A stretch of 64,000 nucleotides of DNA from Bathymodiolus japonicus methanotrophic gill symbiont (GTDB taxonomy: Bacteria; Pseudomonadota; Gammaproteobacteria; Methylococcales; Methylomonadaceae), in contig NZ_BLYC01000007.1 in the NCBI RefSeq assembly GCF_019721995.1, forward strand, positions 62,001-126,000. The letters are read 5' to 3'. The notes beneath the pieces are model-generated. The model ran no database searches. It saw nothing but the letters and a program-made list of their open reading frames with translations, and was not told the DNA's origin. Positions 1-55,478 of the stretch are shown here, piece after piece; position 1 is the first letter of the stretch, and each line of letters begins with the position of its first letter. Both the position numbers and the translations under genes were made by a program.

Positions 1-519
1 GTAGATCGTTTGACAGTAGAACGTCTCCCTCGCTGTCAGCCCCGGACGGGCTGATAGTCTCCAGAAGGCGCAGGGAAATTTGCCAATCCGAAGTGCGCGA
101 TAGCGCGCGAGGGATGCTAAAATTTTATCCCGAATAGCCGTAGAGCCATTTGTGGTAGCCATGACTGAGCTGCTTTGTGCTCAGTCTGTGGCGGACGCAG
201 GGCGGCTGGAGCATCTCCTATTCGCTGCGTAGGTGAACGAATTACGGCGACAGGAGTCCCGGAATTTCGTGAGGTAGCATGGCGCGCCTGGCGTTCTCGC
301 CGGATTTTAATCCGATTGAGAAATTATGGAAAAATACGAAACGCGATTCGACTCATATGAAGTATTTTAAAACTTTTGAAGATCTTCATGATTCAGTTGT
401 GCAAACTTTTAACACTTATATGTATGATGCCAGTAAAGTGATTTGTGTTATGCAAAAATTGCGGGAAGATTTCGTTGTTACCGCCTAAGTTTAAGCGCTC
501 CAAATTTGGAAATTATTTA
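1..519 (+). mobile_element. IS630-family element, 3' fragment, interrupted by a type B CAGCG element
   Basis: The sequence at 1-30 and 291-519 is the C-terminal part of an IS630-family DDE transposase, nearly identical to the reverse complement of 50110-50370. The translated tail carries the family motif FSPDFNPIEKLW, which holds the last acidic residue of the DDE triad, and ends at a stop near 488. The fragment continues into the terminal inverted repeat (GGAAATTATTTA, 508-519) and is then fused to an IS6-family fragment. Everything 5' lies outside the window. A 260-bp CAGCG element (31-290) splits it; removing that element restores the sequence seen in the longer copy exactly. It is a non-functional remnant. 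Confidence 0.85.
31..290 (-). repeat. CAGCG element type B (260 bp), copy 1, in IS630
   Basis: Type B, reverse orientation: L2 end GGCGCGCCTG at 281-290 and R2 end at 31. Flanks CGTCTCCCT and GCGTTCTCG are contiguous in the uninterrupted IS630 copy near 50340, so insertion was seamless with no target duplication. It contains the perfect hairpin GACTGAGC/GCTCAGTC and no conserved reading frame. Confidence 0.9.
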
Positions 520-1139
520 ATTGAAGTGGATCATGCTACGCTCAATCATTGGGTTATCCGTTATTCTCCTGCCATTGCTGTAAAAGCTAAATCTCAGAAA
601 CGAGAAACCAATAAATCGTGGCGCATGGATGAAACGTATATCAAAGTGAAGGGTCAGTGGACCTATTTATACCGAGCTGTTGATAGTCACGGGGATACGC
701 TTGATTTCATGCTTTCTGAGCACCGTGATGAAGAGGCTGAAACCGCATTTTTCAAACAAACGATTAACAATAATGGCTTTCCTGATAAGGTCGTTATGGA
801 TAAAAATGGCGCTAACTATGCAGGATTAGCCAATATTAACCTCTTGTTAATCCTCGCTGGGTTTGCCACTATGATTGACATATTACAAGTTAAATATTTG
901 AATAACATCATCGAACAGGATCATCGCTTTATCAAAAAAATAACAAAACCGATGATGGGCTTTAAAGCGTTTCACTCCGCCCAAGCAACAATTGATGGAA
1001 TTGAAACGGCACATATCATCCGAAAGGGGCAATTGTCTGAGGAAAATATTCCTGCTTATAAGCAGTTTATGGCTTTAGCAGGATAGTTATGCCTGAAGAC
1101 CAGGAGGTCTGTGCTTTTGATAATTATTGCGACAGAACC
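520..1139 (+). mobile_element. IS6-family element, 3' fragment (transposase 5' end missing)
   Basis: Translation from about 524 to the stop at 1086 gives the catalytic part of an IS6/IS26-type transposase. It contains WRMDETYIKVKGQWTYLYRA (first Asp), VVMDKNGANY (second Asp) and EQDHRFIKK (final Glu). The first 40-50 residues are missing because the 5' end is fused to the IS630 terminus at about 520. The right inverted repeat GCGACAGAACC closes the element at 1129-1139. Without its left end and the helix-turn-helix region it should be inactive. Near-identical sequence recurs at 6816-7359 and 22050-22590. Confidence 0.88.
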
Positions 1140-1176
1140 AAAAAAACAACTTGTGCGTAATTAATAAATAACAACG

Positions 1177-1476
1177 CGGGGAGTCGCTATTTTTGCGAAA
1201 GCTTGTTTTGGGCATCCCAGCCCAAGCAAGCGGCAAAAACTTAACGCGACCACTAATGCCTTCGGCGCCCCAGACGTCCTGCGTACGTGCCACTTCGCCA
1301 TTACCATCGTAAACTCGGTGCTGGCTTCGTAACACTCCCTCAAATGACTGGACGGCGTTTCGGAATGCCTTTTATTTTGTCTACACCTACGCTAGCGCTA
1401 CGATTCCGACAAAACAACGGCCCTACGCCTTCTGGGGACTACCAGCCCTCGCTTTCGCTCTCCATGGCTGGCAGCG
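1177..1476 (+). repeat. CAGCG element type E (300 bp; L1 left end with R2-like right end)
   Basis: The only copy of this combination. The first 80 bases match type A (L1, CGGGGAGTCGC), while the right end forms a B-like hairpin (CCAGCC/GGCTGG) followed by CAGCG. The middle has the TTTTGTC/GACAAAA stem of type A but with many substitutions, so it is an older or separate lineage rather than a simple recombinant of the A and B copies here. It lies between the IS6 fragment and the DnaJ-domain gene. Confidence 0.8.
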
Positions 1477-1485
1477 AAGGCATAT

Positions 1486-1980
1486 CTATTTAATTTTTAG
1501 CAGCATTTCTTTAGCCCGGTTGATTTGTGCTGCAATATAACTGGAACCACCCCGATCAGGATGATTTTTTAACATTAACTTACGATGCGCCTCAATAATT
1601 TCCTGTCGACTTGCAGACAGACTCAGCCCCAATATCTTATAAGCCTGTTCCGCAGTCATCACACCTGCATGATTGCCACTTCCTGGATTTCCTGCAGCAG
1701 AAGCACTGCTCTCACGAAACATAAACCACAAGCGCTGCAGTTGCCGCGCATAGCGCAACAGCACTGGCAAAAAACGCGACACAAATGCAATAACCACACT
1801 TAAGGCCGCAATAACCCAGTTTAAGCGCCCCATCGTAGCTAGGAGTAAAAAGCTTAAAGCCACTGCATACAGAGCACTTATTTTAAGAAAACGCTGCCGC
1901 TCATCCGGTGGTTTGTGTAGAAAAGATTTTAGCCAAAAGAACGCAGCAATAATAAAAACTAATATATAAACTCTAATCAA
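1486..1980 (-). CDS. Membrane-anchored J-domain protein (Pam18/TIM14-like DnaJ)
   Basis: A 164-residue protein. Residues 1-17 form an N-terminal membrane segment and two more hydrophobic stretches follow (about 33-48 and 54-68), then a Gly/Ser-rich linker (about 91-105) and a short C-terminal J domain (about 108-164) carrying the HPD signature (NHPDRGGS). HPD stimulates the ATPase of a DnaK/Hsp70 partner, so the protein probably recruits Hsp70 to the inner membrane, as Pam18-type proteins do. The J domain is C-terminal and lacks the Gly/Phe and zinc-finger regions of DnaJ itself. The stop lies 10 bp from the end of the type E element, which may have displaced the native 3' flank. The substrate cannot be inferred. 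Confidence 0.85.
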   Translation of the reverse strand: MIRVYILVFIIAAFFWLKSFLHKPPDERQRFLKISALYAVALSFLLLATMGRLNWVIAALSVVIAFVSRFLPVLLRYARQLQRLWFMFRESSASAAGNPGSGNHAGVMTAEQAYKILGLSLSASRQEIIEAHRKLMLKNHPDRGGSSYIAAQINRAKEMLLKIK

Positions 1981-2126
1981 GACTTATCCTTTATATTTCT
2001 TATTGCTATACAGACCAATAGAATCAGTGATAAAGCATACTACAGAAGATTCAGAAACAAGAATAAAATAAGCAAATAATTAGCATCACCTAACTCATGC
2101 ACAGAAATACATGAAGTTTAGACTTT

Positions 2127-3633
2127 TTATTTTGCCGGCAATACATCCGCTTGTCGAGGAAGCGCAATTGAAATGATACTGGTGATAATAATAAATACAG
2201 CCGAGAGTAAAAGACAGGCTATCAGGCCTGAAGACTGATACACCCAGCCTGATAATAGGGTACCTATTAATCGACCTGATGCATTAGCCATATAATAAAA
2301 GCCTACATCCAAAGATACGCCCTCCTCCTTGGCATAGGCTACTATAAGATAAGAATGCACAGCGGAATTAACGGCAAATACAACACCAAAACCCAATAAA
2401 CCTATAATTAACACCTTTTCAGCCGGCCAACTAGCATAAAGCATCGCTGCAATAATCAGCGGCAGTGTAGCCAGGCAAATTGACCAGAGCATTGCCGTTC
2501 TGCCATCAGGAATCATGCCGCGCCGAATCCCTGTGATTAAAGGTGCAATAGACTGCACAAAACCATAACCAATCACCCAGACAGCTAAAAAAGCACCCAC
2601 ATCGGTATAATCCCAGTGCAATTGCTCTTGCAGAAACATCGGCAGCGCAATCACAAACCAGATATCACGCGCGCCAAATAAAAAGAAACGTGCGGCAGAA
2701 AGATAATTAACCGCCGCGCTTGTAGAAAATATATCGCTAAACCCGGGTTTATATGTAGTTTTCCCCAGATTCTTTTGTAAAACCACATAACTAAACAGTA
2801 AAACTAGGGTCAAGCAGCCCGCCATCAAAGCTACAGTTCCTCTAAAGCCGATCAACGTCAATAGCAACGCACCCAGAAAAAACCCTATACCTTTAATGGT
2901 GTTTTTTGACCCGGTCAATAAAGCTATCCATTGATACAGTTTCCCCTGCGCATGAGCAGGCAACAATAATTTAATGCTACTCTTGGCGCTCATTTTATTC
3001 AGGTCTTTAGCTATGCCTGATATCGCCTGGGCGAACATAACATAAACCACACTGAGATAAACTGGCTCCACCAACAACATAGTCAAGGCAAGTATCTGCA
3101 GCGCCAGCCCGAAATGCATGGTAGCATTTAAACCCATATGTGCAGCAAACCAGCCGCCAACCAGATTAGTAATGACCCCACAAAACTCATATAACAAAAA
3201 CAGGCTGGCAACTTCCAGCGGGCTATAACCTAACTGGTGAAAATACAGAATCACCAGCATTCTCAACGCACCATCCGGCGGGGAGTCGCTATTTTTGCGA
3301 AAGCTTGTTTTGGGCATCCCAGCCCAAGCAAGCAGCAAAAACTTAACGCGACCACTTATGCCTCCGGCGGCCCCGATTCGTCCTCGTCACCTCGTCCCGA
3401 CCCAACAAGGGGTCGGAACATAGACTCCAAATGACTTGACGCCGTGTCGGATGGCCTTTTATTTTGTCTCCACCTTCGCTAACGCTCAGACTCCGACAAA
3501 ACAACGGCCCTACGGCTATCGCGGACTAAAAATCATCACTTCGCTTAGGCTACGTTTCCCTGATTTTCAGCGTCAGAGTAAATGCCCAGTAATTAGCGGT
3601 AACCACGGCATATTGCCGTACTGAACTATTCAT
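2127..3633 (-). pseudogene. arsJ: ArsJ organoarsenical efflux permease (MFS), split by a type A element
   Basis: ArsJ exports 1-arseno-3-phosphoglycerate, made by a partner glyceraldehyde-3-phosphate dehydrogenase, giving arsenate resistance at the inner membrane. The reading frame starts at 3633 (MNSSVRQYAVVTANYWAFTL), is cut after that point by a 294-bp CAGCG element plus one base (3278-3572), and resumes at 3277 (TDGALRML). Removing those 295 bases gives a continuous 403-residue protein, the usual ArsJ length, with about 12 membrane segments and the conserved SGIAKDLNKMSAKSSIKLL region. As it stands the 3' part can only start inside the repeat. A MITE-D fragment abuts the start codon, so the native promoter is also gone. 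No GAPDH partner gene is present nearby. Confidence 0.9.
3279..3572 (+). repeat. CAGCG element type A (294 bp), copy 1, in arsJ
   Basis: L1 end CGGGGAGTCGC at 3279 and R1 end TGATTTTCAGCG at 3572; one extra base (G, 3278) at the L1 junction. The element is antisense to arsJ. It carries the stems GGGC/GCCC with flanking GCTTG, CCGACCC/GGGGTCGG, and TTTTGTC/GACAAAA. Confidence 0.92.
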
Positions 3634-3819: not shown

Positions 3820-4079
3820 CGCTGTCAGCCCCGGACGGGCTGATAGTCTCCAGAAGGCGCAGGGAAATTTGCCAATCCGAAGTGCGCGATAGCGCGCGAG
3901 GGAGGCTAAAATTTTATCCCGAATAGCCGTAGAGCCATTTGTGGTAGCCATGACTGAGCTGCTTTGTGCTCAGTCTGTGGCGGACGCAGGGCGGCTGGAG
4001 CATCTCCTATTCGCTGCGTAGGTGAACGAATTACGGCGACAGGAGTCCCTGAATTTCGTGAGGTAGCATGGCGCGCCTG
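3820..4079 (-). repeat. CAGCG element type B (260 bp), copy 2, in IS-X
   Basis: Reverse orientation. Unlike other B copies, the target on the two sides is not contiguous: about 76 bp of IS-X present in the intact copy (after GGCCCT, before TATTAATTC) is missing. This points to an insertion-linked deletion or a later recombination. Confidence 0.9.
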
Positions 4080-4139: not shown

Positions 4140-4419
4140 CAGGCGCGCCATGCTACCTCACGAAATTCCGGGACTCCTGTCGCCATAATTCGTTCACCTA
4201 CGCAGCGGATGGGAGATGCCCTGAACGCCCTGCGTCCGCAACGACTACGCACAAAAGCCGCTTCGTCATTACTACCTCACTGGCTGGACGGCTATTCGGA
4301 ATGCAATTCTTGCTCCTCTCGCGTGCTGCTAGCACACGTCGAATCAGCGAATTGCCCTGTCGCCTATCAGGGACTAAAAATCACCACTTCGCTAAGCTAC
4401 GTTTCCATGATTTTCAGCG
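4140..4419 (+). repeat. CAGCG element type C (280 bp), copy 1, in IS-X
   Basis: L2 end CAGGCGCGCC and R1 end TTTTCAGCG. The flanks AATGACGT and GATGAACTC are directly joined in the intact IS-X copy (around 33119), showing seamless insertion without duplication. Confidence 0.93.
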
Positions 4420-5317
4420 GATGAACTCAAGCAGTACATCCATTTGAGACTTGCGCTGTAAGCTTCCTACGGTATACGCAGGTAGTTTGCTTTCAATGCG
4501 GGCTATTTGCTCTGGGTGAAGGAGAAGGCAATGGTCAAACAAAAGACTCAGAATCAGGCCACGGCTTGATCCCTCTTCATCTAATTGTTTGGCCTCACGC
4601 CCCCATCCTTCATAAAGCTTCCAGTCCTCAAAGAAAACCTCAATCAGCCATCTCAACGTATAGGCTTGAATAATATCTTGTGTGCGCCAAGTCAGGTCTG
4701 TCGCCACTAAATAGCGATAGTCGTTTTCACCGTCATATTTTAAGGCAATGACAAAGCGCTTTTTACTGTGAGAACTCACCTTTAATCGTGCACTGCTGAC
4801 AGTCACTTTAATCTCTTTGCCGCCACGTACACGTATTATCTGATCAATGCCTTTGTTAATCGAATTAAAGTAGCTCTCGACTGACCTTATTCTACCTCTA
4901 TATTCAATATTTTGGTTTTTACGTAATTGGCTAATCACCTGCGAGCCTCCAGATTCTTTAGCGGCTTCGTCCATAAAGGCTTTTTCACCATAAAGCGCAT
5001 TAGCCAGTACGCCTTTAATCTTAATCAGGCTATGCGCAACTTTAAACTCTTTTAATAAGCCTAATGCAATCTCTGTTTTGGTCGGGTAGGCACTGTCACG
5101 TTCAGGCTTAATAGGCCGATCTTTTTTTCTATACCGCTCTTTTTCAACCGTTTATCTTCTTTATCCCACTGCTTTAAGGCTGGATCCGGCATATAAAAGA
5201 AAAAACCGACAGGCACTGTAATGGATGAGGTAACTAGCAGCAATAATACTATCGTTTGTCCATTAACATACCCGCCGGAGCCTTTGTGTTTCTGCTTGTA
5301 AACCTTATAAATACGTT

Positions 5318-5871
5318 CGGGGAGTCGCTATTTTTGCGAAAGCTTGTTTTGGGCATCCCAGCCCAAGCAAGCAGCAAAAACTTAACGCGACCACTTATGC
5401 CTCCGGCGGCCCCGATTCGTCCTCGTCACCTCGTCCCGACCCAACAAGGGGTCGGAACATAGGCTCCAAATGACTTGACGCCGTGTCGGATGGCCTTTTA
5501 TTTTGTCTCCACCTTCGCTAACGCTCAGACTCCGACAAAACACAGGCGCGCCATGCTACCTCACGAAATTCCGGGACTCCTGTCGCCGTAATTCGTTCAC
5601 CTACGCAGCGAATAGGAGATGCTCCAGCCGCCCTGCGTCCGCCACAGACTGAGCACAAAGCAGCTCAGTCATGGCTACCACAAATGGCTCTACGGCTATT
5701 CGGGATAAAATTTTGGCCTCCCTCGCGCGCTATCGCGCACTTCGGATTGGCAAATTTCCCTGCGCCTTCTGGAGACTATCAGCCCGTCCGGGGCTGACAG
5801 CGACGGCCCTACGGCTATCGCGGACTAAAAATCATCACTTCGCTTAGGCTCCGTTTCCCTGATTTTCAGCG
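5318..5871 (+). repeat. CAGCG element type A (294 bp), copy 2, in IS-X, itself split by a type B
   Basis: 5318-5542 plus 5803-5871 sum to exactly 294 bases. In IS-X the uninterrupted target TACGTTTTGTAGAC (near 34017) shows that the insertion added 294 bases plus one T at the L1 side (5317). Confidence 0.92.
5543..5802 (+). repeat. CAGCG element type B (260 bp), copy 3, nested in type A
   Basis: It sits between GACAAAACA and ACGGCCC of a type A element. These are contiguous in the other A copies, so the insertion is seamless. This is direct proof that B moved after this A copy was in place. Confidence 0.94.
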
Positions 5872-6503
5872 TTTGTAGACTTAGATCGTGCTCGGTCTGA
5901 TTCATCAAAGGCCAACACACCTTCAGTAATGCCATAACGTTTTAAAATTAAGACCACACTCACCCGTAGCAACCAGTCCCAGGGTATACTTGCTTTACGA
6001 AACACCCAGGATAATGCGGCTACTTTGCAATCTCCAAGGCTTGATCGCTCAAACTTAGCCCAGCAAACAGAGTTCATTAGCAGTATGCCCGTTAAACAAG
6101 TGCCCAACCAAGCGGCTTGAATCCGTGTCAAAGCGGCTCCGGTTTTTAGCTGATTGAGCGCATCATTTAAATCGTCAATATAGCTTTGGATAAAGGTGGC
6201 TGGGGCATTCATTAACATGGGATTACACCGATAAAATTACAACAACCTCAGAATACCTGATTTTACCTTCTCAATATCAAAAACTTGAACATCGAGTAAA
6301 AGGTGGATCACATGCTCAGCTTCAAAGGCGCTCACTTTCAAAAAGATGTCATTCTTTATGCTGTTTTCTTTTATGTCAGGTATGGCGTTTCGTATCGCGA
6401 CCTTGAAGAAATTATGGAAGAAAGAGGTCTTGAAGTGGATCATGCTACGCTCAATCGTTGGGTTATCCCTTATTCTCCTGCCATTGCTGTAAAAGCTAAA
6501 TCT

Positions 6504-6815
6504 TGGGGAGTCGCTATTTTTCGGGGAGTCGCTATTTTTGCGAAAGCTTGTTTTGGGCATCCCAGCCCAAGCAAGCAGCAAAAACTTAACGCGACCACTT
6601 ATGCCTCCGGCGGCCCCGATTCGTCCTCGTCACCTCGTCCCGACCCAACAAGGGGTCGGAACATAGGCTCCAAATGACTTGACGCCGTGTCGGATGGCCT
6701 TTTATTTTGTCTCCACCTTCGCTAACGCTCAGACTCCGACAAAATAACGGCCCTACGGCTATCGCGGACTAAAAATCATCACTTCGCTTAGGCTCCGTTT
6801 CCCTGATTTTCAGCG
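6504..6815 (+). repeat. CAGCG element type A (6522-6815, 294 bp), copy 3, in IS6, with an 18-base partial repeat of its left end
   Basis: The full element 6522-6815 is preceded by a partial second copy of the L1 end (TGGGGAGTCGCTATTTTT, 6504-6521). The IS6 target AAATCTCAGAAACG is known from 580-605 and 22040. The stuttered L1 end looks like a slippage or aborted-initiation product and may be informative about the insertion mechanism. Confidence 0.9.
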
Positions 6816-10664: not shown

Positions 10665-10924
10665 CAGGCGCGCCATGCTACCTCACGAAATTCCGGGACT
10701 CCTGTCGCCGTAATTCGTTCACCTACGCAGCGAATAGGAGATGCTCCAGCCGCCCTGCGTCCGCCACAGACTGAGCACAAAGCAGCTCAGTCATGGCTAC
10801 CACAAATGGCTCTACGGCTATTCGGGATAAAATTTTAGCCTCCCTCGCGCGCTATCGCGCACTTCGGATTGGCAAATTCCCCTGCGCCTTCTGGAGACTA
10901 TCAGCCCGTCCGAGGCTGACAGCG
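10665..10924 (+). repeat. CAGCG element type B (260 bp), copy 4, intergenic
   Basis: It lies in the 511-bp gap between the sterol reductase start (10474) and the GGDEF protein stop (10986). Small differences from other B copies (CAAATTCCCC, GTCCGAGGCTG) show modest divergence. I see nothing else definite in the rest of this gap (10475-10664 and 10925-10985). Confidence 0.92.
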
Positions 10925-13238: not shown

Positions 13239-13733
13239 ATGACCGTTAGCACACAAAAACAAAATATGACCGCTTTAAATGATTTACTCACTAATTACCG
13301 TAAAGTATCAAAGTCAGAAAGAGAAAAAGGCACATATTTTGAAGAGCTGAAGTTTCCCAATTATTGAGTAGCTGAAATACACAATGCTGGTGTATCGAGG
13401 TTTATTTTAGGTGGTTTTGCCATGTTTATAGCAAACCCCTACTTAATTCCCCTTAGGCAATAGCATTTGAAACGAATGAAAAGACTATTTTTTTCATATA
13501 GTTGTAGCATAGTTTCAATTTTACCATAAATAATTATTGGGAAACTTCAGTTGAAGAGCTAATTCGTACTTATTTCCGTCATGAAGCCAGTTATAAGGAT
13601 TTATATAGTGATGTATGGTTGTATTCAGATTGGGCAGGTGAGCGCGGTCTATGTAAGACTGATACAGGTATCGACTTAGTTGCAAAAACCAGAGATACAA
13701 ATGAATATCATGCCATCCAATGTAAGTTTTATT
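13239..13733 (+). pseudogene. Restriction-type helicase (Mrr-like N-terminal domain), split by MITE-D and truncated
   Basis: Starting MTVSTQKQNMTALNDLL, the frame gives KSEREKGTYFEE, is cut by MITE-D (13347-13550 with TTGAAGAG duplicated), and resumes LIRTYFRHEASYKDLYSDVW then GIDLVAKTRDTNEYHAIQCK. This matches the N-terminal Mrr/endonuclease-like domain of large DEAD/DEAH predicted helicases found in single-chain restriction systems. D in GIDLVA and QCK look like the D...QxK nuclease residues. The helicase and remaining domains, usually well over 1000 residues, are absent: the gene stops at a type A element whose other side is an Rhs gene. It is a dead defence-gene remnant. Confidence 0.78.
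13347..13550 (-). repeat. MITE-D (204 bp), reverse copy with clear 8-bp duplication
   Basis: Inverted repeats CTGAAGTTTCCCAAT at both ends and an 8-bp direct duplication TTGAAGAG on both sides (13339-13346, 13551-13558). Removing the element and one duplication restores the helicase frame. It has no coding capacity and is a non-autonomous element. Confidence 0.92.
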
Positions 13734-14027
13734 CGGGGAGTCGCTATTTTTGCGAAAGCTTGTTTTGGGCATCCCAGCCCAAGCAAGCAGCAAAAACTTA
13801 ACGCGACCACTTATGCCTCCGGCGGCCCCGATTCGTCCTCGTCACCTCGTCCCGACCCAACAAGGGGTCGGAACATAGGCTCCAAATGACTTGACGCCGT
13901 GTCGGATGGCCTTTTATTTTGTCTCCACCTTCGCTAACGCTCAGACTCCGACAAAACAACGGCCCTACGGCTATCGCGGACTAAAAATCTTCACTTCGCT
14001 AAAGCTCCGTTTCCAGGATTTTCAGCG
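13734..14027 (+). repeat. CAGCG element type A (294 bp), copy 4, at a helicase/Rhs junction
   Basis: The left neighbour is the truncated restriction helicase and the right neighbour the truncated 3' end of rhs; neither gene continues on the other side. This is best explained by recombination between two A copies, one in each gene, deleting everything between them. Confidence 0.88.
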
Positions 14028-15380: not shown

Positions 15381-15660
15381 CAGGCGCGCCATGCTACCTC
15401 ACGAAATTCCGGGACTCCTGTCGCCATAATTCGTTCACCTACGCAGCGGATGGGAGATGCCCTGAACGCCCTGCGTCCGCAACGACTACGCACAAAAGCC
15501 GCTTCGTCATTACTACCTCACTGGCTGGACGGCTATTCGGAATGCAATTCTTGCTCCTCTCGCGTGCTGCTAGAACACGTCGAATCAGCGAATTGCCCTG
15601 TCGCCTATCAGGGACTAAAAATCACCACTTCGCTAAGCTCCGTTTCCATGATTTTCAGCG
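15381..15660 (+). repeat. CAGCG element type C (280 bp), copy 2, in rhs
   Basis: L2 and R1 ends intact; antisense to rhs. Flanks GGGATTTG and GCGGTGGC. Confidence 0.92.
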
Positions 15661-16786
15661 GCGGTGGCTTGGCCTGTTTCTGCTGTCCAGCTTTGTCTTG
15701 CGTCATAGCTGCTTTTTAGGCGGTGGCTTGCATCGTATTCATAGTTGTTGATGCTGTGCTTGTCTTGTGCCTGAGTGATTTTCCCTAGCGCGTTATAGTC
15801 GTAGCTGTTTGTTCCTGCGCTGTTGTTTTTTTGTTTGAGCAGGTTGCCTTGTTGCCATTGGTAGCTAGTGATGTCGTTGTTGCCATCTTTGCTTTGGCTA
15901 AGCTGGTTGTGGTTGTTGTACTGATATGTGTGGCTTCTGTTGAGTGCGTCGGTGCTTTGTGTGAGTCAATTAAAGTCATCGTAGTCTTGTTGTTTCTGTA
16001 GGCTGGTTTGATCCTGTTTTCTCTCGGCTGGATCGGTTGTATAACCTGCGTAAATATCAGTTTGTTGCCCTAATAGATTGTAGTGATAAAGGGTTACGGG
16101 GTAGATCGTTTGATTATAGGTGACTGAGTCTAGGTTATTATCCAGATAGCCGGGCTGAACGATTCTGATGGCTCTGCCTGCGGCATCGTATTCGGTTGTG
16201 GTGCTGTGGCCTTCGTGGTCTATATATTTGCTAACTTGTCCTGTGGGGGTGTAGTGGTATTCACTAACTCGGTTGAGGGCGTCATATTTTCTATATAGGC
16301 GGCCGTTGTCACTAGCACCGTAGTATTCATAACGCTGTGTATTGCCGTTGGGGTCGGTAATGCTTTGGATTATTCCCAGGGCATCCAGTTTTCGGGTGAC
16401 TTGGTGCTGTCCTTTATCTTCTGCACTCGTCCAGTGGCCGCGTTGGTCGTAGTCTAGTGTGAGCGTGTAGTTGTCGGGGTCGGTGATTTTTATCAGGTTG
16501 CCACTACGGTCGTACTGGTACTGGCTAGTCTCTCCGCCGGCATCAATGCTTTGGCTGAGTCTTCCCGCTTGATCATAGCGGTATTGTTTGCTGTCGTGCT
16601 GGGTGTTGCCTATCAGCAGCTGTCTTTGTAGCAGTTGGTTGTCTTGGTTGTAGGTATAGCTGTGGAGTTGCCCTTGGTTGTCGCTGCTTTGGGTGCTTCT
16701 ATTGTTGCTGTCGTAATGAGTTTTGGTTGGGTACCAACTGGCATCAATACCTTGTGTTTTCCTACCCAGGGTATCGTAGATAACAG

Positions 16787-17080
16787 CGGGGAGTCGCTAT
16801 TTTTGCGAAAGCTTGTTTTGGGCATCCCAGCCCAAGCAAGCAGCAAAAACTTAACGCGACCACTTATGCCTCCGGCGGCCCCGATTCGTCCTCGTCACCT
16901 CGTCCCGACCCAACAAGGGGTCGGAACATAGGCTCCAAATGACTTGACGCCGTGTCGGATGGCCTTTTATTTTGTCTCCACCTTCGCTAACGCTCAGACT
17001 CCGACAAAACAACGGCCCTACGGCTATCGCGGACTAAAAATCTTCACTTCGCTTAGGCTACGTTTCCCTGATTTTCAGCG
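16787..17080 (+). repeat. CAGCG element type A (294 bp), copy 5, in rhs
   Basis: Antisense to rhs. Removing 294 bases plus one base at the L1 side rejoins the frame as CQTAT-VIYDTLGRK, a normal YD-repeat transition. Confidence 0.92.
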
Positions 17081-17742: not shown

Positions 17743-18002
17743 CAGGCGCGCCATGCTACCTCACGAAATTCCGGGACTCCTGTCGCCGTAATTCGTTCAC
17801 CTACGCAGCGAATAGGAGATGCTCCAGCCGCCCTGCGTCCGCCACAGACTGAGCACAAAGCAGCTCAGTCATGGCTACCACAAATGGCTCTACGGCTATT
17901 CGGGATAAAATTTTAGCCTCCCTCGCGCGCTATCGCGCACTTCGGATTGGCAAATTTCCCTGCGCCTTCTGGAGACTATCAGCCCGTCCGGGGCTGACAG
18001 CG
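17743..18002 (+). repeat. CAGCG element type B (260 bp), copy 5, in rhs
   Basis: Antisense to rhs. Removing exactly 260 bases rejoins HTDDLGGSI with RFNYNNFRRETVV in frame. Confidence 0.93.
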
Positions 18003-18969: not shown

Positions 18970-19249
18970 CAGGCGCGCCATGCTACCTCACGAAATTCCG
19001 GGACTCCTGTCGCCATAATTCGTTCACCTACGCAGCGGATGGGAGATGCCCTGAACGCCCTGCGTCCGCAACGACTACGCACAAAAGACGCTTCGTCATT
19101 ACTACCTCACTGGCTGGACGGCTATTCGGAATGCAATTCTTGCTCCTCTCGCGTGCTGCTAGCACACGTCGAATCAGCAAATTGCCCTGTCGCCTATCAG
19201 GGACTAAAAATCACCACTTCGCTAAGCTACGTTTCCATGATTTTCAGCG
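18970..19249 (+). repeat. CAGCG element type C (280 bp), copy 3, in rhs
   Basis: Antisense to rhs; separates the N-terminal region (ending LPRNASSP) from VIYNPDINIGY and the DUF6531 segment. Confidence 0.92.
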
Positions 19250-21484: not shown

Positions 21485-22590
21485 GGTTCTGTCGCATAAA
21501 TCCCCCTTCCCGACGTTATCTGCTATCATAATTCTCAATTTCAATAAAAGGTGGATCACATGCTCAGCTTCAAAGGCGCTCACTTTCAAAAAGATGTCAT
21601 TCTTTCGCTGAAAATCAGGGAAACGGAGCCTAAGCGAAGTGATGATTTTTAGTCCGCGATAGCCGTAGGGCCGTTGTTTTGTCGGAGTCTGAGCGTTAGC
21701 GAAGGTGGAGACAAAATAAAAGGCCATCCGACACGGCGTCAAGTCATTTGGAGCCTATGTTCCGACCCCTTGTTGGGTCGGGACGAGGTGACGAGGACGA
21801 ATCGGGGCCGCCGGAGGCATAAGTGGTCGCGTTAAGTTTTTGCCGCTTGCTTGGGCTGGGATGCCCAAAACAAGCTTTCGCAAAAATAGCGACTCCCCGC
21901 ATGCTGTTTTCTTTTATGTCAGGTATGGCGTTTCGTATCGCTACCTTGAAGAAATTATGGAAGAAAGAGGTGTTGAAGTGGATCATGCTACGCTCAATCG
22001 TTGGGTTATCCGTTATTCTCCTGCCATTGCTGTAAAAGCTAAATCTCAGAAACGAGAAACCAATAAATCGTGGCGCATGGATGAAACGTATATCAAAGTG
22101 AAGGGTCAGTGGACCTATTTATACCGAGCTGTTGATAGTCACGGGGATACGCTTGATTTCATGCTTCCTGAGCACCATGATGAAGAGGCTGCAACCGCAT
22201 TTTTCAAACAAACGATTAACAATAATGGCTTTCCTGATAAGGTCGTTATGGATAAAAGTGGCGCTAACTATGCAGGATTAGCCAATATTAACCTCTTGTT
22301 AATCCTCGCTGGGTTTGCCACTATGATTGACATATTACAAGTTAAATGTTTGAATAACATCATCGAACAGGATCATCGCTTTATCAAAAAAATAACAAAA
22401 CCGATGATGGCTTTAAAGCGTTTCACTCCGCCCAAGCAACAATTGATGGAATTGAAACGGCACATATGATCCGAAAGGGCCAATTGTCTGAGGAAAATAT
22501 TCCTGCTTATACGCAGTTTATGGCTTTAGCAGGATAGTTATGCCTGAAGACCAGGAGGTCTGTGCTTTTGATAATTATTGCGACAGAACC
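21485..22590 (+). mobile_element. IS6-family element, full span with a type A insertion and a frameshift
   Basis: Both terminal repeats are present (GGTTCTGTCGCA at 21485, GCGACAGAACC ending 22590). The transposase is split by a reverse type A element (21606-21899) after DVIL. It also lost one base near 22407 (ATGATGGC instead of ATGATGGGC), which removes the C-terminus. Catalytic DETY, VVMD and EQDH positions remain readable. Inactive. Confidence 0.88.
21606..21899 (-). repeat. CAGCG element type A (294 bp), copy 6, in IS6
   Basis: Reverse orientation. The IS6 target CATTCTTTATGCTG (near 6350) is split, with one extra base (C, 21900) at the L1 side, as in the other A copies. Confidence 0.93.
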
Positions 22591-23140: not shown

Positions 23141-23715
23141 CAGGCGCGCCATGCTACCTCACGAAATTCCGGGACTCCTGTCGCCATAATTCGTTCACCT
23201 ACGCAGCGGATGGGAGATGCCCTGAACGCCCTGCGTCCGCAACGACTACGCACAAAAGCCGCTTCGTCATTACTACCTCCGCTGAAAATCCTGGAAACGG
23301 AGCTTTAGCGAAGTGAAGATTTTTAGTCCGCGATAGCCGTAGGGCCGTTGTTTTGTCGGAGTCTGAGCGTTAGCGAAGGTGGAGACAAAATAAAAGGCCA
23401 TCCGACACGGCGTCAAGTCATTTGGAGCCTATGTTCCGACCCCTTGTTGGGTCGGGACGAGGTGACGAGGACGAATCGGGGCCGCCGGAGGCATAAGTGG
23501 TCGCGTTAAGTTTTTGCTGCTTGCTTGGGCTGGGATGCCCAAAACAAGCTTTCGCAAAAATGGCGACTCCACGAACTGGCTGGACGGCTATTCGGAATGC
23601 AATTCTTGCTCCTCTCGCGTGCTGCTAGCACACGTCGAATCAGCGAATTGCCCTGTCGCCTATCAGGGACTAAAAATCACCACTTCGCTAAGCTACGTTT
23701 CCATGATTTTCAGCG
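23141..23715 (+). repeat. CAGCG element type C (280 bp), copy 4, in IS-Y, split by a type A
   Basis: 23141-23279 plus 23575-23715 sum to exactly 280 bases. The outer flanks CTGACTGC and AATGAGC are contiguous in the intact IS-Y (near 7890, opposite strand), so the insertion was seamless. Confidence 0.94.
23280..23573 (-). repeat. CAGCG element type A (294 bp), copy 7, nested in type C
   Basis: Inserted between TACCTC and ACTGGCTGG of the C element, again with one extra base (A, 23574) at the L1 side. Its L1 end has drifted (CGTGGAGTCGCC). Confidence 0.93.
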
Positions 23716-32410: not shown

Positions 32411-32965
32411 CAGGCGCGCCATGCTACCTCACGAAATTCCGGGACTCCTGTCGCCGTAATTCGTTCACCTACGCAGCGAATAGGAGATGCTCCAGCCGCC
32501 CTGCGTCCGCCACAGACTGAGCACAAAGCAGCTCAGTCATGGCTACCACCGCTGAAAATCAGGGAAACGTAGCCTAAGCGAAGTGATGATTTTTAGTCCG
32601 CGATAGCCGTAGGGCCGTTGTTTTGTCGGAGTCTGAGCGTTAGCGAAGGTGGAGACAAAATAAAAGGCCATCCGACACGGCGTCAAGTCATTTGGAGCCT
32701 ATGTTCCGACCCCTTGTTGGGTCGGGACGAGGTGACGAGGACGAATCGGGGCCGCCGGAGGCATAAGTGGTCGCGTTAAGTTTTTGCTGCTTGCTTGGGC
32801 TGGGATGCCCAAAACAAGCTTTCGCAAAAATAGCGACTCCCCGAAAATGGCTCTACGGCTATTCGGGATAAAATTTTAGCCTCCCTCGCGCGCTATCGCG
32901 CACTTCGGATTGGCAAATTTCCCTGCGCCTTCTGGAGACTATCAGCCCGTCCGGGGCTGACAGCG
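32411..32965 (+). repeat. CAGCG element type B (260 bp), copy 6, in IS-X, split by a type A
   Basis: 32411-32549 plus 32845-32965 total exactly 260. The outer flanks TTCACCCA and GCAGAACAAT are contiguous in the IS-X fragment near 42608 (opposite strand): seamless insertion. Confidence 0.94.
32550..32843 (-). repeat. CAGCG element type A (294 bp), copy 8, nested in type B
   Basis: Inserted between GGCTACCAC and AAATGGCTC of B, with one extra base (A, 32844) at the L1 side. Together with the B-in-A case at 5543 it shows that the types insert into each other in both directions. Confidence 0.94.
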
Positions 32966-34514: not shown

Positions 34515-34794
34515 CAGGCGCGCCATGCTACCTCACGAAATTCCGGGACTCCTGTCGCCATAATTCGTTCACCTACGCAGCGGATGGGAGATGCCCTGAA
34601 CGCCCTGCGTCCGCAACGACTACGCACAAAAGCCGCTTCGTCATTACTACCTCACTGGCTGGACGGCTATTCGGAATGCAATTCTTGCTCCTCTCGCGTG
34701 CTGCTAGCACACGTCGAATCAGCGAATTGCCCTGTCGCCTATCAGGGACTAAAAATCACCACTTCGCTAAGCTACGTTTCCATGATTTTCATCG
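34515..34794 (+). repeat. CAGCG element type C (280 bp), copy 5, with CATCG right terminus
   Basis: Full length, but the terminal CAGCG is changed to CATCG. The ATG inside its right end (34782) is in frame with the downstream CDP-alcohol phosphotransferase fragment, so the repeat now supplies the only available start codon. Confidence 0.92.
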
Positions 34795-35357: not shown

Positions 35358-36785
35358 CATCAGTGTTCCCCTATCAATTGAGGCCGTGAAACCAACCTCG
35401 CCACAAGAGAGCTCATAAAGCACTGTAAAGACATTCCTGTTATTATTGCGTTTTGGACTGCCCGAATGGTATACGAGCTGATACGAGATATTCTTGCCTG
35501 GAAAAATAATGGATTCACAAAACGATCTCGTTTTTGAGCCTGTTGCTGCCTAATCTCATGGCGGGAGTCAAAAGGGATAGACTCAACCAGAGTCGCAATT
35601 GAATTTTCTTTTAGCATTGAAATCATGTAATTAGCATGTCGTTTCTGCCGATCCCACCAGACAAAGTCGGTGACGGTTTTATCGTAGACATAGAGATGTT
35701 TCTGAGAGCTGTTATTTCCCTTGTTTTGCTTTTCAATATGATCTCGTAACACAGGTATTTCTTGATGTCTCTGAGTTCCGCTTGTCACCAGACAAAGAAA
35801 TCTGAGCAACCCACTTCTGAGATTCAACGCGTAAATCCCCCCGGCCGCATAAACTTTCCCCTTGCTGTTTTTTTCAGTATGGCAGGCATGATCAATAAAA
35901 TGTCCATCCGCTGCTTCTATGGTGTATTCGTCAAGTTCCGGGGATTCTTTAAGATAATCAATGCCTTGCGATAGCAGTGTTTCAGAGTGAAGATGATAGC
36001 TCTGCTGTTCAAATGCCTCAAGCATACTTGTTCGTCTATGCGACTTCAGTGATTTAAAATACGTTGAGTGGGGAAGCAGCTGGCCATAAATCTGTTCATT
36101 GGCTTGGAGGAAATGGCGACCACTATCGACTACACTGATACAGCGTAATAACCCAAGGCGAATAAAGTCGATATCCTTCAACTCTGGGCATGAACGAGCC
36201 CACAAAGGATGACGCTCTGCTAACAGGGCACGTTCCATACTTTCATTGCAGTGTTGGTGAATATGTTCAGAGAGTGGTAGGTCTTTAAGCATGGGTGATA
36301 TCCGTTTATGAGGTGATTAAAACGGAAATTTCAGGCGCGCCATGCTACCTCACGAAATTCCGGGACTCCTGTCGCCGTAATTCGTTCACCTACGCAGCGA
36401 ATAGGAGATGCTCCAGCCGCCCTGCGTCCGCCACAGACTGAGCACAAAGCAGCTCAGTCATGGCTACCACAAATGGCTCTACGGCTATTCGGGATAAAAT
36501 TTTAGCCTCCCTCGCGCGCTATCGCGCACTTCGGATTGGCAAATTTCCCTGCGCCTTCTGGAGACTATCAGCCCGTCCGGGGCTGACAGCGTTAGAAAAA
36601 TTTTTTCGGCAAATGCAAGCTTTATTTGAAATTATTTGTTGTTTTTTTACGGTGCCTACAGAGTGTCTATTTGCTGTTATAAGTGATTAAAATCAAAAAG
36701 ATGGAAATATTCGAGTGGTGCTACCTTCAGGTAGGTTATAGGCTGCTTTGTTTAGGTACTTCTTCTTTCAATGGGAACACTGATG
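35358..36785 (-). mobile_element. IS-Y copy 3, internally deleted and carrying a type B element
   Basis: Both terminal repeats (CATCAGTGTTCCC and complement) are present. About 390 bp of the transposase gene is missing, joining SRHE directly to IRQQQAQ at a shared ATCTC, which removes the YREK region. A type B element sits in the 5' non-coding end (36332-36591). There is no matching target duplication, so one flank has been rearranged. Confidence 0.88.
36332..36591 (+). repeat. CAGCG element type B (260 bp), copy 7, in IS-Y
   Basis: The flanks GGAAATTT and TTAGAA are contiguous in IS-Y copies at 8915 and 44190: exact insertion without duplication. Confidence 0.94.
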
Positions 36786-41965: not shown

Positions 41966-42111
41966 GAGTCCATCTATATCTCGCCGATAAATCTATTTAT
42001 CAGCTAGTAGTTTTTTCTTAATAACCTGGGCTTTCAATCCAGATCGACATGAATTTCGGTAACTGCTTATTATAGCAACAATCTCAGGCGCATGAAGGCT
42101 AAAAATTAATT

Positions 42112-42405
42112 CGGGGAGTCGCTATTTTTGCGAAAGCTTGTTTTGGGCATCCCAGCCCAAGCAAGCAGCAAAAACTTAACGCGACCACTTATGCCTCCGG
42201 CGGCCCCGATTCGTCCTCGTCACCTCGTCCCGACCCAACAAGGGGTCGGAACATAGGCTCCAAATGACTTGACGCCGTGTCGGATGGCCTTTTATTTTGT
42301 CTCCACCTTCGCTAACGCTCAGACTCCGACAAAATAACGGCCCTACGGCTATCGCGGACTAAAAATCATCACTTCGCTTAGGCTCCGTTTCCCTGATTTT
42401 CAGCG
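42112..42405 (+). repeat. CAGCG element type A (294 bp), copy 9, joining gyrA upstream DNA to an IS-X fragment
   Basis: The left flank is the gyrA upstream region; the right flank starts abruptly inside the IS-X transposase (ACCGTAGGAAGC). As at 13734, this looks like a recombination junction between two A copies. Confidence 0.88.
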
Positions 42406-44979: not shown

Positions 44980-46555
44980 TAGCGGCATCATTTTGGTGTA
45001 CTTGATAGGCATTACATAATGCTCTATACAATGGTTCGGGGTTTATTAATTTAGACGTGCCAGAGACCAGAAATGCGGCAGTCATTAAGGGAATAGACAG
45101 GTCGTGGCTATGGGTCATTTCCAGTACGACCACAAATGAGGTTAACGGTGATTGCAGCATACCCGCGAAATAAGCGGTAATGCTGAGTAAAATGATCACC
45201 GAGGTTGGCGCAATCGGAAACCAGTTCGCCAGGTTTGCACCTAGTCCCGCACCGGTTGCTATGGAAGGCACAAAAGTACCACTAGGAATACCGCTAAAAA
45301 AAGTAGCATCGGGGAGTCGCTATTTTTGCGAAAGCTTGTTTTGGGCATCCCAGCCCAAGCAAGCAGCAAAAACTTAACGCGACCACTTATGCCTCCGGCG
45401 GCCCCGATTCGTCCTCGTCACCTCGTCCCGACCCAACAAGGGGTCGGAACATAGGCTCCAAATGACTTGACGCCGTGTCGGATGGCCTTTTATTTTGTCT
45501 CCACCTTCGCTAACGCTCAGACTCCGACAAAATAACGGCCCTACGGCTATCGCGGACTAAAAATCATCACTTCGCTTAGGCTCCGTTTCCCTGATTTTCA
45601 GCGATAGTTGCCAGCATTTTATACAGTGGAAACAGCGGGTCTACTGTCGCTTCTTCCAGCAATATATTTTTGCCAGTTGATAGCCAGTGCCAAAACTTTC
45701 ACCATGCGATACAAAACCGAGTAAGGCAATAACGCAGCCACATACAAAAGCAACCCTGACGATAGGGAAGCCTCTTTTTTTAATAAAATACTGGCCGCTG
45801 ATGATGATCTTGCTAAAAATCCCACCGAGAAAGCCGCCAATAATGCCACATAGCGGAATTGCCAGCCAGCCTTCGCCCCAGGGTAAACTGAGTTGATTAT
45901 CGGTAAAATAAATCGTGTGGTTTAAAATCGAATAGGCGGTCACACCGGAAAAAATAATGGCGGTTAACACCAATGTGCTTATGCGCTCTTCCAGTGTCCG
46001 CCCCATTTCCTCAATCGCGAACATAATGCCACCGAGAGGTGCACTAAACATGGCGGCAAACCCCGCAGCGCTTCCTGCCAGCAATAGACCTCTAGCCATA
46101 TAATGCGCGGGAAATTTAAACGCTCTGCCGAGTGACCCCATTAAGGAGGCTCCAATATGAGTAGCAGGTCCGCCAAAACCGACCGATGCGCCTGATAATA
46201 AGCCCATAATCGGCAGGAAAGTTTTGCCGATGGCAATGCGCAATGAAACCAGTTTTAAACGTTCCGCCGCAGTATGCTGAAGTTCTAGTGCGGTTTTAAC
46301 CTGGGGAATACCACTGCCTTGACTGCCAGGAAAAAAACGAAAGGTTATCCAGGCTGTCAGGGCGAGGCCAAACGGCGCAACGACAAAATTAAACCAGGCA
46401 TGAACCAGGGAAGCAGAACGATAAAATTCAGAAGCCCACTCGCTGAGTAAAGTCATGGTTGAGATTAATAAACCAATGATGATTGCCCCTAACCAGAAAA
46501 CCAGTCGCTGCTTCCAGGAGTTTAAGGAAAAAAAAGATTTGCTGTATTCAGACAT
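44960..46555 (-). pseudogene. ClC-family chloride channel/antiporter, frameshifted and split by a type A element
   Basis: The N-terminal part (from MSEYSKSFF) contains FPGSQGSGIPQVK, the GxGIP chloride-site motif. The second motif, normally GREGP, reads GFGGPATH, so the gating glutamate is replaced by glycine. The frame breaks near 45665, where a run of As lacks one base. The corrected frame reads LLEEATVDPLFPLYKMLAT up to the type A element (45310-45603) and resumes FFSGIPSGTFVPSIATGAGL with the GxFxP motif. Removing the element plus one base and adding the lost base gives one continuous protein of about 434 residues, normal for the family. Both lesions must be counted, so the gene is dead unless one is a sequencing error. 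Confidence 0.88.
45310..45603 (+). repeat. CAGCG element type A (294 bp), copy 10, in the ClC gene
   Basis: Antisense to the gene. Codon arithmetic after correcting the upstream frameshift supports removal of 295 bases (element plus T at 45309), consistent with the other type A junctions. Confidence 0.92.
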
Positions 46556-49156: not shown

Positions 49157-49436
49157 CGCTGAAAATCATGGAAACGTAGCTTAGCGAAGTGGTGATTTTT
49201 AGTCCCTGATAGGCGACAGGGCAATTCGCTGATTCGACGTGTGCTAGCAGCACGCGAGAGGAGCAAGAATTGCATTCCGAATAGCCGTCCAGCCAGTGAG
49301 GTAGTAATGACGAAGCGGCTTTTGTGCGTAGTCGTTGCGGACGCAGGGCGTTCAGGGCATCTCCCATCCGCTGCGTAGGTGAACGAATTATGGCGACAGG
49401 AGTCCCGGAATTTCGTGAGGTAGCATGGCGCGCCTG
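49157..49436 (-). repeat. CAGCG element type C (280 bp), copy 6, downstream of serB
   Basis: Full-length, reverse orientation, between serB and a stretch without recognisable genes (49437-49600). Confidence 0.93.
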
Positions 49437-49570: not shown

Positions 49571-49599
49571 GGCCCGGCCCGGCCCGGCCGGGCCGGGCC
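49571..49599. repeat. 29-base pure G+C tract, palindromic
   Basis: GGCCC is repeated and then mirrored as GGGCC, giving a strong hairpin made only of G and C in otherwise AT-rich DNA. It sits exactly where the hypothetical frame at 49601-49758 loses plausibility. Confidence 0.85.
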
Positions 49600-49600
49600 A

Positions 49601-52445: not shown

Positions 52446-52455
52446 TTATAGGATC

Positions 52456-52960: not shown

Positions 52961-53424
52961 CTGAAGTTTCCCAATAATTATTTATGGTAAAATTGAAACT
53001 ATGCTACAACTATATGAAAAAAATAGTCTTTTCATTCGCTGTCAGCCCCGGACGGGCTGATAGTCTCCAGAAGGCGCAGGGAAATTTGCCAATCCGAAGT
53101 GCGCGATAGCGCGCGAGGGAGGCTAAAATTTTATCCCGAATAGCCGTAGAGCCATTTGTGGTAGCCATGACTGAGCTGCTTTGTACTCAGTCTGTGGCGG
53201 ACGCAGGGCGGCTGGAGCATCTCCTATTCGCTGCGTAGGTGAACGAATTACGGCGACAGGAGTCCCGGAATTTCGTGAGGTAGCATGGCGCGCCTGCGTT
53301 TCAAATGCTATTGCCTAAGGGGAATTAAGTAGGGGTTTGCTATAAACATGGCAAAACCACCTAAAATAAACCTCGATACACCAGCATTGTGTATTTCAGC
53401 TACTCAATAATTGGGAAACTTCAG
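52961..53424 (+). repeat. MITE-D (204 bp), split by a type B element
   Basis: 52961-53036 plus 53297-53424 add up to exactly 204 bases, the standard MITE-D length. Both CTGAAGTTTCCCAAT ends are intact. Confidence 0.93.
53037..53296 (-). repeat. CAGCG element type B (260 bp), copy 8, in MITE-D
   Basis: The flanks TTTTCATT and CGTTTCAAATG are contiguous in the other MITE-D copies (for example 59325-59340): exact insertion with no duplication. Confidence 0.95.
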
Positions 53425-53471
53425 TTTATGTGGATTAGATAGCTTCAGTAGAAAACCCAGCAAGAAAAGTT

Positions 53472-54680
53472 ATGGAAAATGAATTGAAAAAGACCCATCA
53501 GTATCATCTGGATTCCTTGCGGGGTATTGCAGCACTTGTTGTTGTTCTTACGCACTATATTGGCGCTTTTTTCCCTTATTCTGTTGTTGGCAAGCAGGGA
53601 GAGTATCAGCAGCATTATCTATTCGAAGACCTGTTTTTTTATCCGCCGCTTGGCCTGATGACTGCCGGGCATATGGCTGTGTGCCTATTTTTTATTCTGA
53701 GCGGTTACGTTCTTAGCTATAATTATCTGGGTGAAGCGAGGAATGTTAAGAAATTAACTGGGGCAATATTAAAACGCCCGATTAGATTGGCAGGCGTAGT
53801 TTTATGCACTCTCATTATAAGCGCATTTCTTTGGCGTGGAGGATTGTACTTTAATGAGCAACTTGCTGATGTAAGTTCGTCAAAACCTTGGTTCTTCAGT
53901 CTATGGAAAGGACACTTATCAATCAAAGAGTTTCTGATTAATATCAGCAGTTCACTGTTTGAAAAGGCAGCAAAATACAATGTTTCTCTCTGGACCATTC
54001 AGGTAGAATTATATGGATCAATACTGGTATTTTTAACGTTATTTTTTTGCAGTAATTTTAAATACAGATGGCTGATTTTTGCTGCCTTAATTCTGATTTT
54101 AGTAAAAAGTTTTTATCAGGGTTTTTTTTTAGGAATATTGATTGCCGACCTTGTTAAACATAAACCGATCTGCCTGTCGGTAAGGTTAAAGAAAAATATG
54201 GCTTTCTTCTTTGGGGGAGCATTTCTTTATCTCGGTGGATACCCGCACTACGCAAATATTGAATATATAAATAGCACTGTGTATCATTTTTTACCCGCTG
54301 ATACGGGATATGACGGTGGTTATCCTATGCTTGCGGCCCTTTTTCTGTTTTGCTTTATCTGTTTGCACGATAAGGTAAAAATATTGCTCAATATGCGGTT
54401 GTTGAAATACCTGGGGGAAATATCTTATGGCGTCTATGGTGTGCATATTTTAGTTATTGGCTCATTGTCTGCCTGGCTATTTTTGAACTTGTATAAATAT
54501 ATAGGCTATATTCCTTCATTTTTTGTTGTCCTTAGCTCGGGTCTATTTGTCATAATATGTTTAGCTCACTTAATCACTGTTTATGTGGATAAGCCAGCCA
54601 TCAAGCTTGCTAATTTCGTCGCTAGAATATTCGTAGAATATTTCTATTTGTTGTTACTGAAGTGCAAAACGTTTATTTGA
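53472..54680 (+). CDS. Acyltransferase 3 family membrane protein (OafA-like)
   Basis: A 402-residue integral membrane protein of the acyltransferase-3 family. The N-terminal HLDSLRGIAALVVVLTHY carries the family histidine and the LRGIA motif, and about ten hydrophobic segments follow. Members transfer acetyl or similar groups to O-antigen, exopolysaccharide or other envelope glycans. The next gene is a sugar acyltransferase-like fragment, which supports a role in surface glycan modification. The substrate is unknown. Confidence 0.9.
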   Translation: MENELKKTHQYHLDSLRGIAALVVVLTHYIGAFFPYSVVGKQGEYQQHYLFEDLFFYPPLGLMTAGHMAVCLFFILSGYVLSYNYLGEARNVKKLTGAILKRPIRLAGVVLCTLIISAFLWRGGLYFNEQLADVSSSKPWFFSLWKGHLSIKEFLINISSSLFEKAAKYNVSLWTIQVELYGSILVFLTLFFCSNFKYRWLIFAALILILVKSFYQGFFLGILIADLVKHKPICLSVRLKKNMAFFFGGAFLYLGGYPHYANIEYINSTVYHFLPADTGYDGGYPMLAALFLFCFICLHDKVKILLNMRLLKYLGEISYGVYGVHILVIGSLSAWLFLNLYKYIGYIPSFFVVLSSGLFVIICLAHLITVYVDKPAIKLANFVARIFVEYFYLLLLKCKTFI

Positions 54681-54711
54681 TTTTTTAGCATTTCACCTAT
54701 CTGGATAAAAT

Positions 54712-55197
54712 ATGCCAGAGAAAATTGTTATTTATGGATTGAGTGCATTTTCTGAAATGATGTACCATAACTTTACTCGATATAGCCAAACGACTGTTGT
54801 TGCTTTTTGTGTGGATGAGGAATATATGCGAGAGACAGAATTTTGTGGCCTCCCCGTGGTTTCTTTTCAGCAGGTGACAGAGCTGTACCCAGTCGAGCAA
54901 TATGAAATGTTTGTTGCGATTGGCTTTAGTCGTATGCGTAACCGTGCCTTAATGTTTGACAAAGCCAAGGTTAAAGGTTATTCACTGGTGAATTTTATTA
55001 GTCCAAAAGCCATCATTCGTGAAGATCTGATTATTGGGGAAAATAATGTAATTCAATCCAGTGTCGATATTGATATGTTCGTCACTATTGGCAATAACAA
55101 TGTGTTTTGGACAAGTTCTATTCTTGGGCACAATTTAGTCGTTGGCAATCATAATTACGTGTCGGGTAACTGTGGCTTGGGTGGCAACTGTGTTATT
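54712..55197 (+). pseudogene. NeuD/PglD-like sugar acetyltransferase, truncated by a type C variant
   Basis: About 162 residues: an N-terminal Rossmann-like region (KIVIYGLSAFSEMMYHN) that binds the sugar nucleotide, then left-handed beta-helix hexapeptide repeats (IIREDLIIGENNVIQSSVDI and onwards) as in NeuD/PglD acetyltransferases. The protein is cut after GGNCVI by the 281-bp element at 55198. The sequence after that element does not continue a recognisable hexapeptide repeat, so the 3' end is lost. It probably formed an operon with the preceding acyltransferase (31-bp gap). Confidence 0.8.
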
Positions 55198-55478
55198 CAG
55201 GCGCGCCATGCTACCTCACGAAATTCCGGGACTCCTGTCGCCATAATTCGTTCACCTACGCAGCGGATGGGAGATGCCCTGAACGCCCTGCGTCCGCAAC
55301 GACTACGCACAAAAGCCGCTTCGTCATTACTACCTAACTGGCTGGACGGCTATTCGGAATGCAATTCTTGCCTCCCTCGCGCGCTACTAGCGCACTTCGG
55401 ATCAGCGAATTGCCCTGTCGCCTACCAGGGACTAAAAATCATCACTCCGCTTAGGCTCCGTTTCCCTGATTTTAAGCG
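55198..55478 (+). repeat. CAGCG element type C variant (281 bp), mosaic
   Basis: L2 left end and R1 right end like type C, but the central hairpin (CCTCCCTCGCGCGCTA...GCGCACTTCGGAT) resembles type B and the last 50 bases resemble type A. The terminus is AAGCG instead of CAGCG. It looks like a recombinant between types. Confidence 0.85.

Follow-up and report, generated by a model that had tools for sequence, protein, structure and literature searches.

Among the described mobile elements, the IS605-related PATEs of Haloquadratum have near-terminal palindromes and lack terminal inverted repeats, a target duplication and a transposase (PMC3119063). The present analysis deals with a family of folded, gene-less elements of about 290 nt, apparently undescribed, in a stretch of 64,000 nucleotides from the Bathymodiolus japonicus methanotrophic gill symbiont (contig NZ_BLYC01000007.1, positions 62,001 to 126,000; hereafter the window), in further sequence of the same genome, where the family makes up about 7% of the sampled bases, and throughout the order Methylococcales, which includes culturable strains. 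Near-terminal palindromes, the absence of inverted repeats, of duplication and of a transposase gene, a high copy number and nesting are all common to these elements and to PATEs (PMC3119063). The same source gives PATEs a fixed target oligonucleotide of 4-6 nt on one side, whereas one base on one side is fixed here; moreover, unlike PATEs, the elements have no parent transposon that could be found, an internal conserved fold and an order-wide spread. Because a 4-6 nt target was not observed and no parent transposon was found, membership is not claimed, and PATEs would be the nearest described class by anatomy only. An earlier note on the window, made from its letters alone, stated that no described family fits; this has to be qualified by the anatomical likeness to PATEs (PMC3119063), although no sequence link to IS200/IS605 was found.

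Group II introns have exact joins and structure in common with the elements, which differ from them by the absence of an Rfam match and of a fixed left-flank motif; besides, the elements themselves serve as the insertion site of a true group II intron. Insertion linked to replication occurs in some group II introns. HEARO elements have a target motif next to one end, as ours do. Like ours, the HEARO / IscB omega RNA elements are mobile and have a structured, RNA-like character (PMC9755519); the present elements differ by the lack of an Rfam match and of IscB in their own genus. With REP/REPIN sequences and their TnpAREP (RAYT) enzyme, the elements share many copies, hairpins and, presumably, mobilisation in trans and a single-stranded substrate (PMC6006769); however, the elements are about 290 nt long versus 21-65 nt, display no GTAG/GTGG foot by eye and do not flank the RAYT genes examined. 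No description of the family was found in the literature searched, whose coverage mostly excludes subscription journals, and a study of the Gigantidas platifrons symbiont only mentions insertion sequences in its accessible part (PMC10652631).

Exact insertion and the target base

The top strand of a copy is defined as the one on which it ends CAGCG, and the three main types are called A, 260-nt (B in the earlier note) and 280-nt (C in that note). Copies were collected from 864 kb of the genome: the window, 400 kb of contig C1 and ten further contigs sampled at 40 kb each. This sample contained 228 full copies (87 A, 71 280-nt and 70 260-nt), the automated count taking 21 of the 26 window copies, as its filters drop interrupted copies, some 5'-extended geometries and the E copy. 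For the empty-site test, the joined 50-nt flanks of each copy were searched against sequence of the same genome and one locus of a relative, the joins of A being scored with two variable nucleotides counted inside the element. Because nesting is dense, each genome offers tens of empty sites, whose sequences allow the chemistry to be read. An uninterrupted target was found for 91 of the 228 copies, and 88 of these 91 joins were exact to the base, the remaining ones being off by 1, 1 and 6 nt. The insertion without target duplication that had been claimed for seven copies is therefore borne out and extended.

In contrast to the earlier statement that the targets share no motif, the fourth base of the right flank (+4) was G in 226 of the 228 copies (2.13 bits). 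The other right-flank positions carried at most 0.35 bits, with an avoidance of C at +1 and of G at +5, and the left-flank positions at most 0.1 bits. The G was already present in 89 of the 91 empty targets. In relatives it was found in all 43 rows, which correspond to 39 distinct places, and among the GTDB matches listed it was seen in 50 of the 52 with a recognisable end, a set that overlaps the relatives' rows (4 of the 56 matches had no recognisable end and were left out of the count). One match of the GTDB scan, in Aquamicrobium, was rejected as a chance 22-mer. Outside this family, 30 of 56 matches listed gave loci; in two of these loci, which come from a third family, no tail was recognised. 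The other 28 loci, from six genomes of another family of the order, all had the +4 G, and their tails ended in CAGCG, CAGCC, CCTTC or CCAGC. The conservation of the G in 28/28 loci despite differing tail ends indicates that the target code is independent of the tail letters. The fourth base of the element itself was also G in 86/87 A, 71/71 280-nt and 69/70 260-nt copies; the three bases before it are variable. Such an exact insertion with almost no target requirement raises the question of which enzyme inserts folded DNA on so little information.

Fold and orientation of the elements

Twenty tails were aligned and 24 base pairs were predicted. Changes on both sides were observed in 11 of the 24 pairs, 97.5% of the cells pair, and the covariation score of 0.354, which none of 500 shuffled alignments reached, compares with 0.121 for shuffled and at most 0.072 for slid alignments; the number of pair types was not unusual (185/500 shuffles). 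These compensatory changes support the predicted tail fold. An A-like alignment that also covers the 5' hairpin showed at least two Watson-Crick types in 26 of its 57 pairs. Near-terminal palindromes are thus present at both ends, as a 3' hairpin with compensatory changes and as the 5' hairpin of the A-like alignment.

The orientation of the copies was compared with GC skew computed after masking of the elements. The top strand lay on the C-rich strand in 183 of the 228 copies (p 6e-21), and the sign of the link agreed in 10/10 of the extra contigs. When the 220 copies with open reading frames (ORFs) on both sides were divided into the four gene arrangements, the ratios of skew orientation to the opposite one were 40:16, 48:11, 34:8 and 54:9, or 176 to 44 altogether; as the bias is present in all four arrangements, transcription does not explain the orientation. 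IS608 and ISDra2 use the lagging-strand template (PMC6006769). In this genome, the orientation places on that template the strand whose 5' flank carries the motif, as for these two elements.

Routes of mobilisation

The one-sided target code is compatible with a transposition of single-stranded DNA of the IS200/IS605 or TnpAREP kind, as are the exact joins, the hairpins at the ends and the link of orientation to skew. As a plausible reading we tentatively favour an order-wide family of non-autonomous elements, mobilised in trans by an HUH-type enzyme (IS200/IS605- or TnpAREP-like) that would move them in single-stranded form. The strand beginning 5'-CGCTGAAAATC, complement of the CAGCG-ending strand, would be active. 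The HUH enzyme would recognise the terminal hairpins and cut three bases after a C (C-N-N-N|) both in the donor flank and in the target, and the strand would then be inserted into the single-stranded lagging-strand template, leaving exact joins and no duplication. Also possible, if somewhat more doubtful, is an order-wide mobile system of a new kind, in which a gene-less folded element of about 290 nt would be inserted exactly at replication forks by an undetected host enzyme, with one G three bases past the join as the sole code, kept while the 3' end of the element changed completely (CAGCG, CCTTC, CCAGC).

The search for a mobilising enzyme covered the families RRXRR, Y1_Tnp, TnpB Zn-ribbon and RVT_1 and one single protein (RAYT). 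Y1 domains were detected in 17 of 18 genomes of the genus and in 11/11 others tested. Four genomes had been chosen as element-free for the Y1 comparison, and three of them gave model matches, leaving G016 as the only true negative. With Y1 in nearly all genomes and elements in three of four presumed negatives, the presence of Y1 does not discriminate. Element tails adjoin 3 of 30 Y1 loci, all three from element-rich genomes; the ends of the IS200-like copies inspected look unrelated by eye, which makes these copies an unlikely parent. A RAYT of 172 aa lies directly downstream of one element in G084. Its homologues with 63-82% identity are limited to three other genomes of 151, weaker ones being found in 132/151. 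Two other RAYT genes (L133 and L147) have GCTGGCTTYAGCCTGC-type repeats on both sides and are ordinary REP arrangements, separate from the elements.

Several observations weigh against the HUH mechanism. None of the families searched yielded a mobiliser, and no Y1 or IS200/IS605 element could be linked to the family by sequence. Nine of the 19 genomes without a match to the RAYT query (Pfam Y1 was not searched there) bear elements by the covariance model described below, G021 having 12 matches; this makes it less likely that the RAYT group in question supplies the common mobiliser, and RAYT was rejected as a tied partner. A single target base is fixed, versus 4-6 in the IS605 type (PMC3119063). 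The G at the fourth base of the element is not kept in one genus, whose copies begin CGATTG. The link with skew is not significant in closed relatives, where 38 of 64 copies agree (17/30 in G010, 9/14 in G086 and 12/20 in G206), and on the C1 contigs of G086 and G010 a single chromosome strand carries 13/14 and 22/30 of the tail matches, respectively, across both skew halves. Finally, the tests of the working strand do not decide between the two: with G-U versus A-C pairs the subfamilies disagree, and the folding energy, lower for the bottom strand in 12/12, reflects mostly a composition effect.

An RNA-mediated route, in which a transcript would fold, be reverse-spliced or primed into fork DNA and be copied to complementary DNA, seems to us unlikely. 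The conserved fold with its compensatory changes, the exact joins and the reverse transcriptases (RTs, RVT_1) detected in 9 of 10 genomes searched are consistent with it; it is opposed by the absence of an Rfam match and of a fixed left-flank motif, and by G139, which has one element model match and no RT match. The partial copies on C1 speak mildly against it too, since 13 are tail-only and 13 head-only, with no excess of 5' truncation; by eye, most of them are nested or internally deleted, and a few are truncated, at either end. The RTs of this genome that were inspected look like defence or retron types, as judged by eye rather than by a family scan, which also disfavours this route. An RT as mobiliser was suggested by RT genes 497 bp from tails in G010 and G060 and was rejected, as these genes are part of a group II intron that lies within the tail. 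This intron, of about 1.9 kb with an RT of 444 aa, sits in element 3' tails in 6/6 copies (L319-L322 in G010 and L325-L326 in G060), at one common position in the four copies whose junctions were inspected, and apparently exploits the elements as a homing site. Two further RT loci of this genome were noted (L336 and L337, contigs C102 and C85), one with a pair of neighbouring RT-like ORFs (405 and 648 aa), the other with a small RT of retron-like appearance close to a UvrD-like helicase; both are possible defence loci.

We regard as rather improbable a recombinase that would accept nearly any site and join to it a folded element in single-stranded or circular form, in the manner of integron integrases with attC hairpins. 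Exact joins, folded ends and the replication-linked orientation in this genome agree with such an enzyme, but the attC core motifs of integrons are not seen at the element ends and the fixed base is found four positions away from the join instead of at it.

An RNA-guided nuclease, IscB/HEARO- or TnpB-like, for which the element would be the guide RNA and the +4 G the target-adjacent motif while a transposase would move the element, appears improbable. A motif beside one end of a structured RNA-like element is what this route expects, and the side of the motif may fit either an IscB-like top-strand or a TnpB-like bottom-strand reading. However, RRXRR (IscB), present in 22 of 151 genomes of the family, was found in 0/11 genomes of the own genus, no HEARO match was obtained in Rfam, and the TnpB Zn-ribbon model matched in 0/10 genomes, though a TnpB-like ORF was recognised by eye in L144 of the genus member G153. 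Many genomes of the family contain short ORFs that match about the first 50 positions, or a small part, of the IscB RRXRR (L104-L118), which may be IshB-like.

IS91 and Helitron elements have a Y2 transposase and a GTTC/CTTG-type target; no such motif was present in the flanks of the 228 copies, and Y2_Tnp was not searched. Ordinary DDE-type miniature inverted-repeat transposable elements, which the small size, high copy number and nesting might recall, are almost certainly not involved, being contradicted by the 88/91 exact empty sites without duplication and by the absence of terminal inverted repeats on inspection, so that the claim of a chemistry unlike that of duplication-making DDE transposons is upheld.

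Spread, copy number and copies in the window

With the 280-nt type as a DNA query, matches were obtained in 55 of 151 genomes of the family (17 of 29 genera), and for the order as a whole a covariance model built on the final 140 nt gave matches in 148 of 251 genomes, from 36 of 48 genera (E 1e-4). Among the matches listed, the carriers include Methylotuvimicrobium buryatense 5G, Methylomicrobium sp. wino1, several Methylomonas, metagenome-assembled genomes of Methylicorpusculum and Methyloprofundus, and the Bathymodiolus platifrons methanotrophic gill symbiont. Contamination may account for the matches assigned to Rhodospirillales, a thiotrophic symbiont and Cycloclasticus. The window gave no match to a known RNA family in Rfam at the gathering score, and a search of seven loci at E 5 returned two sub-threshold matches only, both outside the elements.

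In the 4.97-Mb genome, the 18-nt tail of the A and 280-nt types had 978 matches with one mismatch allowed, versus 0 for a reversed-pattern control; extrapolation from the 864 kb gives a total of about 1,300 copies. The mean identity to the consensus in a first set (61 A, 41 280-nt and 38 260-nt copies) was 99.0% for A, 98.1% for the 280-nt and 99.8% for the 260-nt type, which indicates recent movement. The two variable nucleotides of A are TC in 49/87 copies, TT in 18, GC in 13 and others in 7, and are tied to haplotype only in part. The 400 kb of C1 were scanned for longer left-right pairs and contained no autonomous copy; the sole 2-kb pair was rejected as one because it consists of nested insertions.

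All 26 elements reported earlier in the window were recovered at their places (ten A, eight 260-nt, six 280-nt, one 281-nt and one E), and their share of about 11% of it is confirmed. The fixed lengths hold for the 260-, 280- and 281-nt copies, while A, given as 294 nt, is made of 293 nt plus two variable nucleotides at the left end. The 260-nt and 280-nt types have a common 5' end, CAGGCGCGCC, A and the 280-nt type share a 60-nt 3' tail, and A and E share a 5' domain; comparison of the ends by eye showed no terminal inverted repeats. With a length of about 300 nt, and with three window copies split by other copies, there is no room for a transposase gene, in agreement with the reported absence of a mobilising gene in the elements. 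The copies are as follows.

31 to 290, minus strand: 260-nt copy
1176 to 1476, plus strand: E copy, including two variable nucleotides; its right flank AAGG obeys the +4 G rule
3278 to 3572, plus strand: A copy
3820 to 4079, minus strand: 260-nt copy
4140 to 4419, plus strand: 280-nt copy; exact empty site
5317 to 5871, plus strand: A copy, split by the 260-nt copy at 5543-5802
5543 to 5802, plus strand: 260-nt copy inside A; exact empty site
6521 to 6815, plus strand: A copy; its 5' neighbour, from 6503, is the first ~18 nt of another A (TT variant)
10665 to 10924, plus strand: 260-nt copy
13733 to 14027, plus strand: A copy
15381 to 15660, plus strand: 280-nt copy
16786 to 17080, plus strand: A copy
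17743 to 18002, plus strand: 260-nt copy
18970 to 19249, plus strand: 280-nt copy
21606 to 21900, minus strand: A copy; empty site found
23141 to 23715, plus strand: 280-nt copy, split by the A copy at 23280-23574
23280 to 23574, minus strand: A copy inside the 280-nt copy; empty site found
32411 to 32965, plus strand: 260-nt copy, split by the A copy at 32550-32844
32550 to 32844, minus strand: A copy inside the 260-nt copy; empty site found
34515 to 34794, plus strand: 280-nt copy
36332 to 36591, plus strand: 260-nt copy; exact empty site
42111 to 42405, plus strand: A copy
45309 to 45603, plus strand: A copy
49157 to 49436, minus strand: 280-nt copy
53037 to 53296, minus strand: 260-nt copy; exact empty site
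55198 to 55478, plus strand: 281-nt variant of the 280-nt type

The arrangement at 6503-6815 fits the insertion of an A into another A followed by recombination. The window also contains, at about 49571-49600, an intergenic G+C-rich palindromic run (GGCCCGGCCC... / ...GGGCCGGGCC).

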